In this document: positions 8,882 to 31,041 of the stretch, piece after piece
Layout: every line of letters begins with the position of its first letter
How positions within the stretch are numbered: the stretch's first letter is position 1
Source of the DNA: a virus
DNA: 31,154 nt
Virus record (IMG/VR): IMGVR_UViG_3300003324_000172
Location: 1-31,154 of that record
Reading direction: 5' to 3' (one strand)
The notes under the pieces: generated by a model
The model's database searches: none
What the model saw: the letters and a program-made list of their open reading frames with translations, nothing else
Told to the model about the DNA's origin: nothing
Translations under genes and position numbers: made by a program

Positions 8882-9628
8882 ATGAAACGCATACTTACAT
8901 TGCTGCTAACTGGCATAGTAATCGCTACACCGGCTACAGCATCAGCACAGTCAAACATCTGGGTTAATAATGATGTTAAAGACATGTTCAGCATTAAGCT
9001 CTATGAGCCTAAAGCGCCTTTTATCAAGGTAGAGGTAAAACCAGAGGAAACAAAAAAGCCGGTTGCAGAGCCTAAAAAGCCTGAGCCGGTTATTTATTCT
9101 GTGGTAGCTGGTGACAACCTCACTAAGATTGGTACAGCTTACAATGTGGAGTGGCAACGCCTGTGGGCTAAAAACACTCAGCTTACACACCCGGACCTTA
9201 TACATATTGGTGACCAAATAACCATTCCTGAGCCGTCTGAGCAGCTATCACGCGATATACCGGCTGCAGTGTCATTACCGGCTGAAACGCCCAATGTAGC
9301 GCCTCTGCGCGATTATGGCGGTGGTAATGGCTATGACTATGGTTACTGTACTTGGTATGTTAAAAACCGCCGGGGCGCATCCATTCCTAATAATTTAGGC
9401 AATGCAAATACTTGGTACTACCGGGCGCAAGCGGCTGGTATGTCTGTTGGCTCTACACCAAGAGCCGGGGCGGTTGGTACTACTACGCGCGGTGCATTAG
9501 GTCATGTGGTGTATGTGGAGTCAGTAAATGCAGATGGTTCTATAAATATTTCTGAAATGAATGCACCAACATGGGGCGCTGTTACCTACAGGACCGCTAG
9601 CGCTGGTGAGTTTCTATACATCTACTAA
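8882..9628 (+). CDS. exported LysM-CHAP peptidoglycan hydrolase
   Basis: The 248-residue protein has a Sec signal peptide (MKRILTLLLTGIVIATPATASA). A Pro/Lys/Glu-rich spacer follows at about 45-70, then a LysM domain at 72-116 (YSVVAGDNLTKIG through IGDQITIPEP) that binds glycan. A CHAP amidase/endopeptidase domain covers 148-248, with Cys 156 in YCTWYV and His 208 in GHVVYV as the catalytic pair. It would act outside the cell membrane. Its own strong promoter and opposite orientation separate it from the lysis cassette, so it may remodel the host wall early, or provide export-dependent lysis. The domain order and CHAP signature recall exported proteins of Ca. Saccharibacteria; this is a memory-based comparison. 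Confidence 0.9.
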   Translation: MKRILTLLLTGIVIATPATASAQSNIWVNNDVKDMFSIKLYEPKAPFIKVEVKPEETKKPVAEPKKPEPVIYSVVAGDNLTKIGTAYNVEWQRLWAKNTQLTHPDLIHIGDQITIPEPSEQLSRDIPAAVSLPAETPNVAPLRDYGGGNGYDYGYCTWYVKNRRGASIPNNLGNANTWYYRAQAAGMSVGSTPRAGAVGTTTRGALGHVVYVESVNADGSINISEMNAPTWGAVTYRTASAGEFLYIY

Positions 9629-10045: not shown

Positions 10046-10054
10046 ATTATAACA
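10046..10054 (-). promoter_or_regulatory. extended -10 promoter, leaderless gene
   Basis: TGT-TATAAT (10054-10046) is a perfect extended -10. It lies directly after the T-tract of the terminase terminator and 7 nt before an ATG. No -35 is evident. Confidence 0.65.
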
Positions 10055-13773: not shown

Positions 13774-14022
13774 TTATTTAGCGCGGCGGTTCTGTAAGTA
13801 AGCTATCACTGCCGCTGGTACACCAACAAGCACTGCCAAGCCAACAAGCAGGTCAAAACCTTGTGTCTTAACAAAGTTATGCGTGTAATCACTTACACCC
13901 GGCAACTGCCATAGACCGTATAGATAAGCTACTATTGTAGCGCCAACACTCTGCAGAAAAGTACGCAATGATTTTGCTTTTGGTGTGTTGTTTTGTGGAT
14001 TTAGTAAGTTGTTATTGTTCAT
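13774..14022 (-). CDS. holin-like membrane protein
   Basis: 82 residues with a polar Asn-rich N-terminus, two hydrophobic segments (about 26-42, SVGATIVAYLYGLWQLPG, and about 56-76, FDLLVGLAVLVGVPAAVIAY) and a basic C-terminus (QNRRAK). This is the build of a two-span class II-type holin. It directly follows the endolysin by 11 nt, which supports the role of permeabilising the membrane at the end of infection. The ribosome site is AAGGGG. No sequence family is recognised. Confidence 0.7.
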   Translation of the reverse strand: MNNNNLLNPQNNTPKAKSLRTFLQSVGATIVAYLYGLWQLPGVSDYTHNFVKTQGFDLLVGLAVLVGVPAAVIAYLQNRRAK

Positions 14023-14033
14023 ATTATCCCCTT

Positions 14034-14882
14034 TTAATCTTTAGCTATTAATCCTAATAACTGACCAAGGCGGCGCAACCATGATTTACCAGCCGCCTCA
14101 TCTGCGCGCTGCTGTGCCTCAAGCTCTAGCACCCTCTTACCTGCCTCTGTTGCTTTAGCGGTTTCCTCAGCCACCTTTGCATTAGCCTCAGCCACTGCCT
14201 TTTGTGCAGCAATAACTTCTGCCTTAGAGCCGCCTAAAGCCTGCTCTAGCTCAACTACGCGGCGCTTAAGAGCCTCCTTAGCATCGCGGTAGGCTTGACC
14301 ATTAACCCATTGCCGCCAAATGAAATCTTTGACCGGCGTATTAATGTAAGTGTCCATAAACAACTTATCAAACTCACCGGCATGGGTGCGGTGCAAATCC
14401 CAGCCGCCTATTTCACTGTGACCTATTCGCAACAGTCCTACATCATCTTTAGTAATCATTTCCTCTTGCCCTCCATCTATTACCCATTTATCAAAATTAA
14501 CAAATTGCTGACCTTGTGAGATTGGGCGCGTGTTTTTGGTGGTATAGAGCGCCCTAGCACCGTTTGACTCATAGTTTGCCTCGCCTTGCAGGTCTACCCA
14601 TATATGCCCATAGTGTACACCGCCTATATAGCCCATGTCACGATTGACCACCATAGTAAGCCAACCTTTGCCCTCTGTGCCTAAGCCCTGCCTAATATAA
14701 GTATCACCAGCATCAATAGCATTGCCGCGTGCGGCATATGGGTTAGGTACACCCAAAAACTCCATGAGCGCCTTAGTAAGAGTTACACATTGACCGTTAA
14801 GGTCTGGGTAGCCGGGATGTGGCACAATCGTACCAACTTTGCTATCAAGAAATGCGCGTATTTCAGCTTTCGTTCTCGCCAT
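14034..14882 (-). CDS. CHAP-domain endolysin with coiled-coil tail
   Basis: 282 residues. The N-terminal 100 or so form a CHAP domain: NGQCVTLTKAL with catalytic Cys 32, and HYGHIWVDL with His 93. Residues about 210-265 form a long Ala/Glu/Lys coiled coil (VVELEQALGGSKAEV, AEANAKVAEETAKA), ending in a short hydrophobic tail. CHAP enzymes cut peptide bonds or amides in peptidoglycan. There is no signal peptide, so release needs the adjacent holin. The coiled coil in place of a wall-binding domain is less usual and might mediate oligomerisation. The start has TGGAGG upstream and overlaps the 32-aa gene. Confidence 0.85.
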   Translation of the reverse strand: MARTKAEIRAFLDSKVGTIVPHPGYPDLNGQCVTLTKALMEFLGVPNPYAARGNAIDAGDTYIRQGLGTEGKGWLTMVVNRDMGYIGGVHYGHIWVDLQGEANYESNGARALYTTKNTRPISQGQQFVNFDKWVIDGGQEEMITKDDVGLLRIGHSEIGGWDLHRTHAGEFDKLFMDTYINTPVKDFIWRQWVNGQAYRDAKEALKRRVVELEQALGGSKAEVIAAQKAVAEANAKVAEETAKATEAGKRVLELEAQQRADEAAGKSWLRRLGQLLGLIAKD

Positions 14883-23080: not shown

Positions 23081-23641
23081 TTAAGAGCTAAGTGCTGTGG
23101 CAATGTACTCTTTGTGAGTGTCACCGTTGCTATCTGGATAAGCAACAAACACTGCAGGGTACGCGATAGCCTCACCATCAACATAGGTGATTTCACCACT
23201 GCGGTCTGCGATTTGTGCGTTAGGCACAACGATACGCTTAATGCGCCCGCCGGTCATAACAAGCTCAAATACAACAGAAACGCGCGGTAATTCCTCATTG
23301 GTTTGGGTTACGGTGATTGAGCCGTTACCCTCCTCAACAACATTATCGCTGCCATAGTAAACCTTTAATGCCTCTGTATTGGTCTCAATGAGATTAACAG
23401 TAAACATTTCCTTAAAGGTGGTCTGCCCTGACAAAACAAGGTCACCGCCCCAAGCGTTTACTTCCTCTACATCGGTCTCAACACCATTGACAAGCCCATC
23501 CTCTGAGACATACCCAAGCCCCTTAAAAGCGGCGTTAAGAGTCTGCCAAGCAGTGGTTGGCAATGTAGTACCATAAGGGGCTACAAATACCGCACCAGTG
23601 GATTTAGGCTTACCAAATGACACATTATCGGAGTCATTCAT
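23081..23641 (-). CDS. major tail (tube) protein
   Basis: 186 residues, mostly beta strands: STGAVFVAPYGTTLP, VEEVNAWGGDLVLSGQTTF and ITVTQTNEELPRVSVVFELV. This fits the tail-tube fold, and the position just before the tail chaperones is standard. It has its own promoter (TGC-TATAAT, 23710-23718) and its own terminator, as expected for an abundant virion protein. AGGA lies 10 nt before the ATG. Confidence 0.85.
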   Translation of the reverse strand: MNDSDNVSFGKPKSTGAVFVAPYGTTLPTTAWQTLNAAFKGLGYVSEDGLVNGVETDVEEVNAWGGDLVLSGQTTFKEMFTVNLIETNTEALKVYYGSDNVVEEGNGSITVTQTNEELPRVSVVFELVMTGGRIKRIVVPNAQIADRSGEITYVDGEAIAYPAVFVAYPDSNGDTHKEYIATALSS

Positions 23642-23709
23642 ATGGTTAGTTTCCTGTACAGTTTTGTTGGCACAACAATGCGCTTGGCAAAGCTCTGCTT
23701 TATGGCTGC

Positions 23710-23739
23710 ATTATAGCACAAGCACTTAATTATTTGCAG
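23710..23739 (-). promoter_or_regulatory. tail-tube promoter
   Basis: CTGCAA (23739-23734), an 18-nt spacer ending TGC, and TATAAT (23715-23710). The -35 is close to the TTGCAA seen at the early promoters. It overlaps the 3' end of the membrane-anchored protein gene. Confidence 0.7.
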
Positions 23740-24583
23740 GCTCTTGGCGGCAACCAAACTTTATTACAAAGTCTACAGTGCAGCGCTCTACAAATCGCGG
23801 TGCAGGCTCAGAGGCTGCAGCCGGGTTATTAGTGGTGTAGCTATTGTAGGTATTATTTGTGGTTGGCTGTATTTCTCGCGGTTGTACAGTGTCCGGGGCG
23901 CTCTGTGGGCTAGTTTGCTGCTCTGTCTGGGTAGCATTAGGATTATCATTTATATAGTTACAGTCCTTGCGCCCAGATGCCTCACATTCAAGCTGTTGGC
24001 GGCGCTCTTTAGTCACAATGCTAAAGTTTTGCGTGTAATACTGATATTCAACATGCCTAGTGCCAAATAGGGTAGGGATGTTATATACATTGGTAAACTG
24101 CAACACGCAATTTGAGCCTACTGGTATATCTGCAGGCAGTAATCCAATGGTTACACTCAAGCCCTCTATTTTGCGTGGTATGCTCTGGGTGTCATAAAAG
24201 TCACCATTCCGGGCGCTCTCTGGTGGTGCAATGATATTTTTATAATTCTTACAAAATACCTCTCTTAGCACCCGGACCTCACCCTTATGGTAAATCTCAC
24301 CAAAGAATATTCCGCTAATTTCCTCACCGGGATAATAACTAGCTTGGTCTGTTGCTACAGGCACTTTAATGTCTGCAACCTTGATTGGGCGGACCTGCAA
24401 CCATATGAGAGCAATTAACGCCACTACACCAATGGTAAATGCGGCAATCGTAAGTATATTGGTGATTGTTCCTAGCAGGATGCGGTTTTTAGTGTAAAAG
24501 CTACCCACACCGCGCCCAAAGCCAACAAATAGCTCTTTTGTATTTGCTGCTAGACTAATGACTTTTAATTTGTACCTGTGCAT
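23726..24583 (-). CDS. membrane-anchored protein with extracytoplasmic domain
   Basis: 285 residues. A basic N-terminal part is followed by one transmembrane span at about 40-63 (ILTIAAFTIGVVALIALIW). A folded outer domain lies at about 75-195 (YYPGEEISGIFFGEIYHKG, Cys in VFCKNY and SNCVLQF). A Gln/Thr/Asn/Pro-rich linker of about 60 residues and a short Cys-bearing tail (ERCTVDF, FGCRQE) complete it. I know no family for it. It is not an obvious virion protein, yet it lies inside the head-tail gene cluster with two other membrane genes. A cell-surface role in exclusion or envelope change is inferred. Confidence 0.75.
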   Translation of the reverse strand: MHRYKLKVISLAANTKELFVGFGRGVGSFYTKNRILLGTITNILTIAAFTIGVVALIALIWLQVRPIKVADIKVPVATDQASYYPGEEISGIFFGEIYHKGEVRVLREVFCKNYKNIIAPPESARNGDFYDTQSIPRKIEGLSVTIGLLPADIPVGSNCVLQFTNVYNIPTLFGTRHVEYQYYTQNFSIVTKERRQQLECEASGRKDCNYINDNPNATQTEQQTSPQSAPDTVQPREIQPTTNNTYNSYTTNNPAAASEPAPRFVERCTVDFVIKFGCRQEPANN

Positions 24584-24710
24584 TCCTCTTACTTGCCCTC
24601 TCTAAAGCCTCTAAGTGTGGTTGTAATTGTTTTTGAAAGCGGCGGCGCAAATATATACGGCTGCCACTACTCAACAGTATTATAACAATAAGCGTAAGGG
24701 CTGTAGCCAT
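24555..24710 (-). CDS. 51-aa single-span membrane protein
   Basis: A small ORF starting MATALTLIVIILLSSGSRIY, then a basic, helical tail (LRRRFQKQLQPHLEALERAS). GAGGT 8 nt upstream supports this ATG; an in-frame ATG six codons earlier is possible. It begins 1 nt after the previous stop and overlaps the next gene by 29 nt. The positive residues after the span put the tail in the cytoplasm. It could be a spanin-like, holin-partner or accessory membrane protein. Confidence 0.6.
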   Translation of the reverse strand: MATALTLIVIILLSSGSRIYLRRRFQKQLQPHLEALERASKRNAQVQIKSH

Positions 24711-24711
24711 G

Positions 24712-24933
24712 CTAATTACCTCGCTCATTGTCCAGCCTTTTTTCTAGGCGCTCTACCACACTTAACATCTTGGTATCTACCTCTGTACTCTTATTAATTG
24801 CATCAACAGTTTTTTGAGCTATGTCTTTAACATAACTATTATACTCTTTACTAATAGATGCATTCTGCCAAATAAAATACAGTAACAGTGCTACCGGCAG
24901 TCCAAAATCTTTGATTAGGGGTGCTATATCCAT
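24712..24933 (-). CDS. BhlA/UviB-like small membrane protein
   Basis: 73 residues: a short outer N-terminus, one span (FGLPVALLLYFIWQNAS) and a charged coiled-coil tail (DTKMLSVVERLEKRLDNERG). This is the build of BhlA/UviB-type holin-like proteins associated with bacteriocin release and phages of Gram-positive bacteria. Here it lies among head-tail genes, not beside the endolysin. Either it is a second holin or it forms a membrane complex with the two genes that follow. Confidence 0.7.
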   Translation of the reverse strand: MDIAPLIKDFGLPVALLLYFIWQNASISKEYNSYVKDIAQKTVDAINKSTEVDTKMLSVVERLEKRLDNERGN

Positions 24934-24941
24934 AGCCCTAC

Positions 24942-25388
24942 CTATGAGCTATAAATACTATAGCCGTACAAATCCTGTGATGTGCTTAGGCTATCAAGGG
25001 TTTGTGTACCGTATAAGCCAATAAGCTGCAGTTCTGCCTTTTTAAAATACAAATCACCGGCAGGGTTACTATACTTAAAGTTTTCACTGTATGGACCGGC
25101 TGTTTGGCTATATGTCTCAGTGGGTAGCTGGTCTAGCGGTGCTTGCAGCGCGCGCTTGGCTGCCTCCATTACTACACCTTGAACATTTAAGAAATAGACC
25201 TCATTAGCATTAACTAGAGCATCTAGGTCTTTATTAACATCCAAAGCAATCTGCCTTAGCCGGTTGCTAGCCATCTTTAGTATGTAATCTGCCCGGTTTC
25301 CATCTGTAGGCGCTTGCCAATACAGAGTTAAATCATCCTTATTTGCATAGGTGTTAGGTGCTGATACTGGTGTAGTTACGCCTGCCAT
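24942..25388 (-). CDS. head-tail connector (adaptor) protein
   Basis: 148 residues, helical in the first half (RADYILKMASNRLRQIALDV, EVYFLNVQGVVMEAAKRAL), then SQTAGPYSENFKYSNPAGDL, the short beta segment typical of siphophage Gp15/Gp19-type adaptors that sit under the portal. It directly follows the portal gene (1-nt overlap region, GGAGGT 8 nt upstream), which supports the call. Confidence 0.8.
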   Translation of the reverse strand: MAGVTTPVSAPNTYANKDDLTLYWQAPTDGNRADYILKMASNRLRQIALDVNKDLDALVNANEVYFLNVQGVVMEAAKRALQAPLDQLPTETYSQTAGPYSENFKYSNPAGDLYFKKAELQLIGLYGTQTLDSLSTSQDLYGYSIYSS

Positions 25389-26780: not shown

Positions 26781-26789
26781 ATTATACCA
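26781..26789 (-). promoter_or_regulatory. portal promoter
   Basis: TGG-TATAAT (26789-26781), a perfect extended -10 with no -35, in the 104-bp gap between RusA and the portal gene. Confidence 0.7.
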
Positions 26790-26823: not shown

Positions 26824-27183
26824 CTAGTTTATCTCTGTTATTCGTATAAAAGCGCCGGGCTGCCCTTTGCGGTATTCCGCTTGGGCTGCCATCTGTGGCA
26901 CATTCTGCCATTTATCATCAGTAAGCACCAAGCCCTCAACTAGCATATCTAGGATGCTTGTAAGGCGGTTATCTAAATCAGCTCTGCCTCTAGTGCCAAA
27001 GTAAATTATAACCTCTACCATGACCGGCACATAAAAGCGCTGCCGGGTCTGCACTCTGATTTGCTTTAGCGCATCATTCTGCCATTGAATAAATTTATTA
27101 TTCGGTACTGATATGCCAGTGCGAGTATGAGCGCGGCTATTCTTTTTGCTTGGTACATTGCCCTCAAGTACCAGCTCTATCAT
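26824..27183 (-). CDS. rusA: RusA-family Holliday-junction resolvase
   Basis: 119 residues with GNVPSKKNSR at 8-17 (N-terminal basic loop) and RADLDNRLTSILDML at 67-81, then LTDDKW at 87-92. The acidic residues D69, D71 and D89/D90 match the catalytic set of RusA, which cuts four-way DNA junctions. It could clear branched DNA before packaging. The gene is embedded in the head genes between the MuF-like and portal genes, and its start overlaps the MuF-like stop as ATGA. Confidence 0.85.
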   Translation of the reverse strand: MIELVLEGNVPSKKNSRAHTRTGISVPNNKFIQWQNDALKQIRVQTRQRFYVPVMVEVIIYFGTRGRADLDNRLTSILDMLVEGLVLTDDKWQNVPQMAAQAEYRKGQPGAFIRITEIN

Positions 27184-27869
27184 TTCATTTGCGCCTGTAG
27201 CTTTTTGATAATTTTAGGGTCATATATCGCAATGCCGCCTAGTGGGTCTACAGTAGCTGATACCTCAGCCGCCTTGTAGCCAAGGTAGCGCACATAGCTT
27301 GGTATAAAATCATTGGGGTCTAGGCTGTTGCCGGTGCGTACTGCCCACTTTTCAGCATCTAATATAAGTTTCTGATATTGGTTATCACTAGCAATTAATA
27401 AAATATCTTTGCTCTTAAGGGGTAGGCTTAATTGTGCGACATTGCCAAAATTGGCTGCAGTGGCAGTATCACGCGCAACATAGAAACCGCTGCCTAGTTC
27501 TAGCCCGGCGGCACTGACATTATTGCCTGTGCCTCTAAATACAACCTGCCCACCATCCGGCGCGATAGGTGCAGCCGCGCCGCCGCTTGGCGCTTTGCCT
27601 GCTTTGTAGTTTCCTAGCAAGCCATTGCGTGAGCCATAGCCCTTAGTGACTATTTTGCCCTCACAGCCACCATGCCGCTCAAATACATCACTGCCGGGGT
27701 CTGTATATGTGCCAACCTTTGATTGACACCACTTACAAGCATCACCATGCTCTGTGCGCGTAACAGTGGGGCGCTTGCCGGATTGCCGGGCAGTAGTAGT
27801 AGCATCCATCTGCGCCTTAGATGCACTGCTCATTAAAAAGTTTGCTACATATTCTTGTATAACTGCCAT
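27180..27869 (-). CDS. MuF-like minor head protein with ADP-ribosyltransferase-like C-domain
   Basis: 229 residues in two parts. Residues 1-75 resemble the C-terminal end of MuF/SPP1-gp7 minor head proteins: a helix, then C45-x2-C48 (ACKWC) and H66-x2-C69 (HGGC), a probable zinc site. After a Gly/Ala/Pro linker (about 85-105), residues 106-222 recall ADP-ribosyltransferase toxins: VVFRGTG with Arg 112, GSGFYVARD at 126-134, AANFGN, then LGYKAAEV and IAIYDPKI. A clear catalytic Glu in a QxE/ExE motif is not evident (Glu 202 is a candidate), so activity is uncertain. MuF proteins carrying effector domains are known to enter the host with the DNA. Confidence 0.65.
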   Translation of the reverse strand: MAVIQEYVANFLMSSASKAQMDATTTARQSGKRPTVTRTEHGDACKWCQSKVGTYTDPGSDVFERHGGCEGKIVTKGYGSRNGLLGNYKAGKAPSGGAAAPIAPDGGQVVFRGTGNNVSAAGLELGSGFYVARDTATAANFGNVAQLSLPLKSKDILLIASDNQYQKLILDAEKWAVRTGNSLDPNDFIPSYVRYLGYKAAEVSATVDPLGGIAIYDPKIIKKLQAQMK

Positions 27870-30328: not shown

Positions 30329-30700
30329 TTATGTGTTCCGCGCGCCCCAAACATCAACATAGATTTGGTAGCGGTGGTATTGGGCTAATGTATCATCCAA
30401 ATTAACCACAGAGTTTACCTTTGCCCTAGTAATATTGGCATTGTAGGCACATAACTCAATTACCCGGTCTGCAATATCATTGGCTTTGTTCTTGGCTGTG
30501 GCGCGGCTGGTTTTGTGATAGACCTCTATTAATATTTCTGCCTTATCCAACACCATGCTTTCACGCGGACCACCAGTACGGTCTACTAATATGTATTGGT
30601 CACCGGCATTGTCCGGCTTATCGCCATGCGCTGCCCATCCTGTGCCAACTATTGAATTTAGCCAAGCAATTACTACTGCCTCAACATCAACTTTAGCCAT
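30329..30700 (-). CDS. tail terminator / tail completion-like protein
   Basis: 123 residues with the alpha-beta pattern of siphophage tail-terminator proteins: an N-terminal helix VEAVVIAWLNSIVG, strands QYILVDRTGGPRES and AEILIEVYHKTSR, a helix KNKANDIADRVIELCAY, and a last strand HRYQIYVDVW. Such proteins cap the tail tube and join it to the head. The start overlaps the previous stop (TAATG). It is unusual for this gene to lie upstream of the scaffold. Confidence 0.75.
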   Translation of the reverse strand: MAKVDVEAVVIAWLNSIVGTGWAAHGDKPDNAGDQYILVDRTGGPRESMVLDKAEILIEVYHKTSRATAKNKANDIADRVIELCAYNANITRAKVNSVVNLDDTLAQYHRYQIYVDVWGARNT

Positions 30701-31041
30701 TATGCATTTACACTTTCTGCGCGATAGTATCTATTCCACCTAGTAGGCGTGTTACCATCCATAAACTTAACGCTGCTGCTATCAACCGCAAAGGTCTTGC
30801 CATCGTAATCAAAGGTAGAGTTGCCAACATCAGCCGTACTAGCCTTTGGCATGTGTACGCGCACTTGGTCTTTGGACTGCTCCATTGCTTGCTGTTCGCG
30901 TGCTGTGGTTGGTTCAGTAATTGGTGCAACTAGGCAATCAGAAACAGTGACTTGCTGGGTGGTATAGGTTGGATTATTTAAATCATCCACCGCCCCGGCT
31001 ACCTTTTGAGTAAATACTATTTCCATGCCTACCATAAACAT
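30700..31041 (-). CDS. head closure-like protein
   Basis: 113 residues, beta-rich: EIVFTQKVAGAVDDLNN, QQVTVSDCLVAPITEP, QVRVHMPKAST, FDYDGKTFAVDSSSV and NRYYRAESV. This fits head-closure or head-tail joining proteins of the SPP1 gp16 type. AAAGGTG 8 nt before the ATG at 31041 favours that start over an internal Met at 31026. It pairs with the tail terminator that follows. Confidence 0.7.
   Translation of the reverse strand: MFMVGMEIVFTQKVAGAVDDLNNPTYTTQQVTVSDCLVAPITEPTTAREQQAMEQSKDQVRVHMPKASTADVGNSTFDYDGKTFAVDSSSVKFMDGNTPTRWNRYYRAESVNA

Follow-up and report, generated by a model that had tools for sequence, protein, structure and literature searches.

A virus record of 31,154 bases (IMGVR_UViG_3300003324_000172), analysed here over its whole length and hereafter referred to as the window, carries three genes, A, B and C, between its head–tail adaptor and tail tube genes; judged from sequence and gene context, their products are most likely involved in the timing and execution of host lysis. 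We propose, with a probability of roughly 55%, that A-B-C is a portable lysis-control cassette, in which a two-part holin would consist of one-span A, perhaps joined by B, and of an 82-amino-acid (aa) protein encoded beside the resident lysin. This proposal draws on context and topology, and lysis is the most likely role because relatives carry A-B-C, or unrelated stand-ins, beside lysin genes. The genes and their neighbours are arranged as follows.

24942–25388, minus strand: head–tail adaptor Gp19/Ad1, upstream border of the slot (PF09355, 4.4e-15; phrog_137).
24712–24933, minus strand: gene A, 73 aa, called the 'holin-like' member.
24555–24728, minus strand: gene B, 57 aa from the first ATG, or 51 aa if translation starts at the internal ATG of codon 7.
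23726–24583, minus strand: gene C, 285 aa, with a span, an outside domain, a linker and a Cys tail.
23642–23718, minus strand: downstream border of the slot, an extended −10 promoter-like motif and a conserved leader (AAGCAGAGC, stem-loop, GTTGTGC), before the tail tube gene.
23081–23641, minus strand: tail tube protein, downstream neighbour (phrog_117, 2.7e-48).

The sequence-only reading of this DNA had described a contiguous, overlapping three-gene cassette flanked by a connector gene and the tail tube gene. The overlaps of 17 nucleotides (nt) between A and B and 29 nt between B and C bear this out, the Pfam and PHROG matches place the two flanking genes as it stated, and its coordinates and lengths for A and C, on the minus strand, are correct. 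It gave B 51 aa, the length obtained from a start codon inside the frame; counted from the first ATG, B has 57 aa. All three are real genes under purifying selection, with dN/dS values between the window and its relatives of 0.05–0.12 for A, 0.05–0.17 for B and 0.11–0.12 for C in the pairs with unsaturated dS (dS was saturated in four of seven pairs for C and one of seven for B). The view that the genes go together was supported for A and C, which were both detected in 12 of 34 whole IMG/VR records and in none of the others; neither was found alone in an unrelated context in these 34 records. Searches of A, B and C against Pfam, PHROGs, NCBIfam and PADLOC returned no convincing family.

The evidence for a role in lysis comes mainly from the places in which relatives of these genes are found. 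In a second lineage (L008, L009, L032 and L038), A, B and C stand in the same order in all four records, and A is 34–40% identical across the two lineages, compared with 78–95% inside the lineage of the window. The window-type capsid protein was searched for in these records and found in none of the four, and similarity to the window in the tape measure protein is just ~25–31%, over parts of the protein. There, tail-fibre-like genes precede A-B-C, which is followed after 43–44 base pairs by a lysin gene and then by a gene for a 100–108-aa membrane protein. The lysin is a GH25+LysM protein in L008 and L009 and a phrog_4018 amidase in L032, with the L038 lysin 93% identical; in Pfam, the L032 lysin reached just 0.11 (Amidase_2) and the L038 lysin gave no match at 0.001. 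An occupant of the same slot unrelated to A-B-C, a single 103-aa protein (the L22 type, in L022, L024 and L025), also has relatives directly 5′ of lysin genes, one preceding a CHAP gene (L049, 1.4e-13) and the other an M23 gene (L050, 2.2e-13); these are two of the five loci found, and a search of both records for the window capsid protein found none. Late lysis control had been one of several roles suggested for the cassette, and it is the one that these lysin-side positions, 4/4 for A-B-C and 2/5 for the unrelated occupant, support.

In the window itself, the lysin genes lie elsewhere.

14034–14882, minus strand: probable endolysin, CHAP-like, apart from the cassette (phrog_7 endolysin, 0.0053, a weak match).
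13774–14022, minus strand: 82-aa small membrane protein adjoining the lysin, proposed partner of A.

This lysin and holin-like pair is ~10 kb downstream of A-B-C. Lysins at the resident endolysin place in relatives match CHAP, Amidase_2 or M23, so the lysin type varies while the 82-aa protein can persist; the latter is 90% (L017) and 87% (L027) identical and adjoins the lysin gene there too. It has one strong hydrophobic stretch above the threshold and a second, weaker one visible by eye. Since the window phage has this pair at the usual place, its cassette need not be lytic, and genes adjoining lysins can be accessory, with another function. The resident pair thus counts against the lysis role, as do the single above-threshold span of the proposed partner and the lack of a holin-family match in the cassette. 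Separately, a LysM+CHAP protein with a signal-like start (8882–9628, plus strand; CHAP 3.7e-18, LysM 4.8e-9) is encoded on the opposite strand, away from the lysin, and may be an additional secreted wall enzyme or the product of a host-derived gene.

We collected relatives by scanning IMG/VR with the tail tube protein, A, C and further proteins; many of the records compared are fragments. The place between adaptor and tail tube was occupied in all 25 contigs counted (the window and 24 loci) and never empty. Both borders are visible in 23 of these; the contigs of L015 and L047 break off within the slot, and L003/L004 and L018/L019 are near-duplicates there. Of the 29 loci examined, L027 and L031, which start inside the tail-tube gene, and L028–L030, which are distant and have no detectable adaptor, were left out of the count. 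Five mutually exclusive sets fill the slot: A-B-C (9/25), a set of 103+75+119/136 aa (9/25), a set of 140+100+191 aa (3/25), and single genes for proteins of 126 aa (1/25) and 103 aa (3/25). As judged from sequence, the slot is hypervariable and its content independent of phage relatedness. Capsid proteins are 94–95% identical to that of the window in L014, L016 (where the match covers part of the protein), L047 and L018, yet these loci carry other slot sets; the capsid protein of L026 is only 66% identical, yet this locus carries A-B-C.

Despite this turnover, the sets resemble each other in design. In every set, one small protein combines a hydrophobic N-terminal stretch with a long, charged tail; in the 100-aa protein of L018, the stretch falls below the hydropathy threshold. 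Under a crude hydropathy threshold, a span was scored in 10 of 12 distinct slot proteins, compared with 6 of the 41 remaining window genes (Fisher p 2e-5). The test sets the proteins of several phages against a single genome and counts one homologous pair, and the threshold passes over the likely span of the 100-aa protein of L018. No homology of A to two other A-like families of the slot was detected, and hhalign gave a probability of 0.2% for the L22-type occupant against A. The L018 100-aa protein matched phrog_2658 ('hol-like chemotaxis', 7.2e-9) and phrog_214 (Rz-like spanin, 1.8e-5), matches to be read with the caution that coiled coils call for. In the named-phage collection, we found no relative of C or of the five A-like proteins of related phages that were searched there, the 126-aa occupant among them. 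In IMG/VR, the most frequent occupant other than A-B-C (the L14 type) was seen solely in the slot, at 8/8 loci, as was the L18 type (3/3), which also counts against a role in lysis.

The position of the slot raises the question of whether C, or A-B-C together, might be virion or assembly factors required at the neck; such factors would sit between adaptor and tail tube, and the slot would always be filled. The neck genes expected at this place, and reported as missing from it by the earlier reading, are however encoded upstream of the scaffold gene.

30329–30700, minus strand: tail terminator (phrog_123, 2.8e-12).
30700–31041, minus strand: head closure protein Hc1 (phrog_501, 1.9e-9).

With the adaptor, head closure and tail terminator functions all encoded outside the slot, the second-lineage cassette lying beside a lysin far from neck genes, and membrane spans in the proteins, for which the PHROGs connector families gave no match to A, B or C, a neck function is highly improbable. 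Elsewhere in the head region, the minor head protein (27180–27869) keeps its first ~88 residues in relatives and the remainder is often replaced; the C-terminal part looks by eye like an ADP-ribosyltransferase-type domain, with no Pfam match. L014 and L021 carry ~3 kb extra between the minor head protein gene and a RusA-like gene.

The borders of the slot suggest how the cassette may be expressed. In its strict form, TGnTATAAT, the extended −10 motif has seven copies on the late strand of the window and one on the opposite strand. Five of the late-strand copies stand directly before the portal, tail tube, 108-aa, tape measure and lysin-region genes; another lies within B, one is at 10054, and none directly precedes A. 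The copy before the portal gene lies here.

26781–26789, minus strand: extended −10 motif, probably where the portal-adaptor-A-B-C unit begins.

Because the motif precedes the portal and tail tube genes and is not found before A, A-B-C probably forms the 3′ end of the portal–adaptor unit and would be co-transcribed with it. The excess on the late strand suggests many short late units; a generic promoter scan of the slot region showed no excess (15 versus a shuffle mean of 18.9). Downstream of the slot, AAGCAGAGC is present in 22 of the 22 leader sequences read (the window and 21 loci), whatever the slot contains. It can pair with GTTGTGC (GCA.AGC/GTT.TGC) round a variable stem-loop, and RNAalifold on the 18 aligned leaders gave eight pairs, one of them changed on both sides (GC 7/18, CG 7/18). 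The leader had no Rfam match in the window and is possibly a regulatory RNA.

Hydropathy gives A a single N-terminal span (~residues 3–21) followed by a 52-aa charged part (35% DEKR), and B a single N-terminal span followed by a basic C-terminal part. Neither has a lysine or arginine ahead of its span, whereas C has seven before its span and three in the following 15 residues, with the bulk of the protein after the span. By the positive-inside rule, A and B are therefore predicted to be N-out/C-in and C to be N-in/C-out with a single span, topologies that derive from hydropathy and charge only, with a crude threshold. The label 'BhlA/UviB-like', given to A beforehand, finds no support in family searches: Pfam returned no family at E ≤ 10 (DUF2746 was not among the matches), NCBIfam none, and PHROGs a sole holin match at E 0.086 (phrog_4898); the 11 members of A8 matched no holin family. 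With no confident family match, the label describes a likeness of topology only. A match of B to UNC45 (0.049) was judged to reflect low complexity or chance. By eye, a second in-frame start, ATG or GTG (Met and Val alternating), is present in 13 of 13 B genes, at codon 7 in nine of nine and at codon 9 in the four second-lineage genes. It may be a dual-start switch of the holin/antiholin kind, kept here as a lead only; the region overlaps gene A, which limits its freedom to change.

The AlphaFold model of C (12 sequences, mean pLDDT 62.8) agrees with the architecture first read from the letters, a span, an outer domain, a Thr/Asn/Gln linker and a Cys tail. It comprises a span helix (residues 34–64), a β-sandwich (~80–190, within an outside domain set at ~67–192), a disordered Thr/Asn/Gln linker (~211–263, pLDDT < 50) and a C-terminal Cys hairpin. 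The outside domain modelled alone (66–198) has identical strands and a mean pLDDT of 74.0. All 12 sequences in the alignment keep the same four cysteines (111, 159, 268 and 278). Across seven relatives, the Ig core is 48–94% identical to that of the window, the anchor 23–67% and the linker 24–67%; the conserved part of C is thus its outside domain, and the anchor and linker are variable. The C protein of L004 (L004:2459–3304) seems identical to that of L003 minus four residues in the outside domain.

The modelled sandwich resembles Ig/arrestin-like sandwiches in a general way only. A fold search of the PDB gave no match at E ≤ 0.001; the best Z scores, 8.7 for the full model (Spo0M; rmsd 3.4, 105 aligned) and 8.2 for the ectodomain (Spo0M; rmsd 4.4, 112 aligned), are near the values that common arrangements reach. 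Profiles of C searched against the PDB gave nothing convincing, and the one BFVD match (3.4e-7) comes from an uncultured phage and is uncharacterised. Against PADLOC-DB, the only match was at 0.015, over the linker and tail (198–274). A New_glue match of one C member (0.0012) was judged low-complexity or chance. The best reading is that C is a new membrane-anchored, Ig-like envelope factor that would act from outside in egress.

C could alternatively be a spanin-like or LysZ-like envelope factor for which A and B are just assembly or anchoring partners, with the 82-aa protein as the true holin. Its predicted N-in/C-out topology is that described for LysZ (PMC13056207); it is also predicted for the final protein of the L018 set, which matches an Rz-like spanin weakly (0.0065). 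The L20 and L22 slot types nevertheless consist of a lone A-like protein with nothing C-like, so the A-like part, rather than C, is the constant element, and we regard this alternative as quite unlikely.

The main rival to a lysis role is superinfection exclusion or another accessory function, in which the proteins would sit in the membrane of the infected cell and block other phages, and the slot would be a landing site. Whole sets swapped irrespective of relatedness are typical of accessory genes, and C combines an outside domain with a fast-changing anchor and linker. A dispensable accessory gene would not be expected to fill the slot in 25 of 25 contigs, however, and A has no promoter-like motif of its own, two unrelated occupants occur beside lysins, defence models give only the weak match (0.015) to C, and the outside domain is conserved rather than variable. 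We consider exclusion unlikely overall, but it keeps some weight because accessory membrane genes may likewise collect near lysins.

If A-B-C does control lysis, the cassette, at the 3′ end of the portal–adaptor unit, would be made late alongside the head proteins. Once enough A (perhaps with B) had accumulated, the membrane lesion would be completed with the resident 82-aa partner and the endolysin could then act. C would remain membrane-anchored and expose its Ig-like domain on the outside, acting on the envelope or regulating triggering from there. A one-span cassette that other phages keep beside the lysin would here close the portal unit, leaving the lysis system split in two. A broader and doubtful extension, to which we give well under even odds, is that a dedicated exchange slot swaps unrelated, complete egress modules, each built around a one-span 'timer'; that a timer behind the portal ties lysis timing to head production; and that C is the founding member of a new class of Ig-like egress factors, which are anchored in the membrane and act on or sense the host envelope from outside.

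One-span holin-like proteins have little sequence in common, and for this reason most lysis genes in phages of uncultured bacteria lack annotation; an always-filled, fixed slot with interchangeable sets offers a positional handle for finding them. If the proposal is true, the window phage has a split lysis system with its trigger wired to the head genes, and a new Ig-like family joins the envelope factors. We claim no host, since a pattern scan of GTDB contigs found no relative of C, the window capsid protein matched only four loci at 42–43% (all Lachnospiraceae-type) and the window contains no tRNA genes. Nothing found here speaks for the earlier suggestion of release from a host that itself lives on another cell.

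Compared by gene order and topology, the second lineage, with a one-span gene, an endolysin and a holin-like gene in 4/4 records, resembles SPP1 (gp24.1/gp25/gp26) and PBSX (XhlA/XlyA/XhlB). In SPP1 (PMC6316719), one-span gp24.1, the endolysin and two-span gp26 follow in this order; the holins work jointly, and gp24.1, made late, is proposed to determine the tempo of lysis. The SPP1 pair 24.1/24.1*, also from a one-span gene, recalls the second in-frame start of B. The span of XhlA and gp24.1 is C-terminal, whereas that of A is N-terminal, and the one-span genes of the window lie ~10 kb from the lysin and come with two further proteins, B and C.

In the F1 mycobacteriophages, as described in PMC13056207, the one-span, N-out/C-in LysF1b and the two-span LysF1a govern lysis. 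A shares with LysF1b the single N-terminal span and, as predicted, the orientation and the highly charged cytoplasmic part, but is shorter (73 versus 92–150 aa) and has no DUF2746 or any other Pfam match. By the same account, LysF1b is paired with a small two-span protein, whereas the candidate partner of A has one strong span and is encoded ~10 kb away, and A in the window lies outside the lysin cassette. A also resembles the BhlA/UviB holins in its small size, one N-terminal span and charged tail, with no sequence family match.

By description (PMC13056207 and PMC9671378), C is like the Corynebacterium phage LysZ and the T4 holin T in its predicted single span, N-in/C-out topology and outside bulk. 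C differs in its Cys tail, its Ig-like sandwich and the length of Thr/Asn/Gln linker between them. Only in the second lineage does the C gene lie beside the lysin, as in a LysZ-type cassette.

Distal holin-like cassettes are described in Gordonia phages and mycobacteriophages (PMC9671378), where CaiB and the cluster B/AN phages carry holin-like genes away from the lysin, as here, and the lysis genes of P2-like phages are located between tail and head genes (PMC3091744), within the structural cluster, as proposed for the window. A swappable slot between adaptor and tail tube with mutually exclusive sets is not part of the available descriptions of the CaiB, B/AN and P2-like systems (PMC9671378 and PMC3091744), and in this the arrangement reported here would differ from them.
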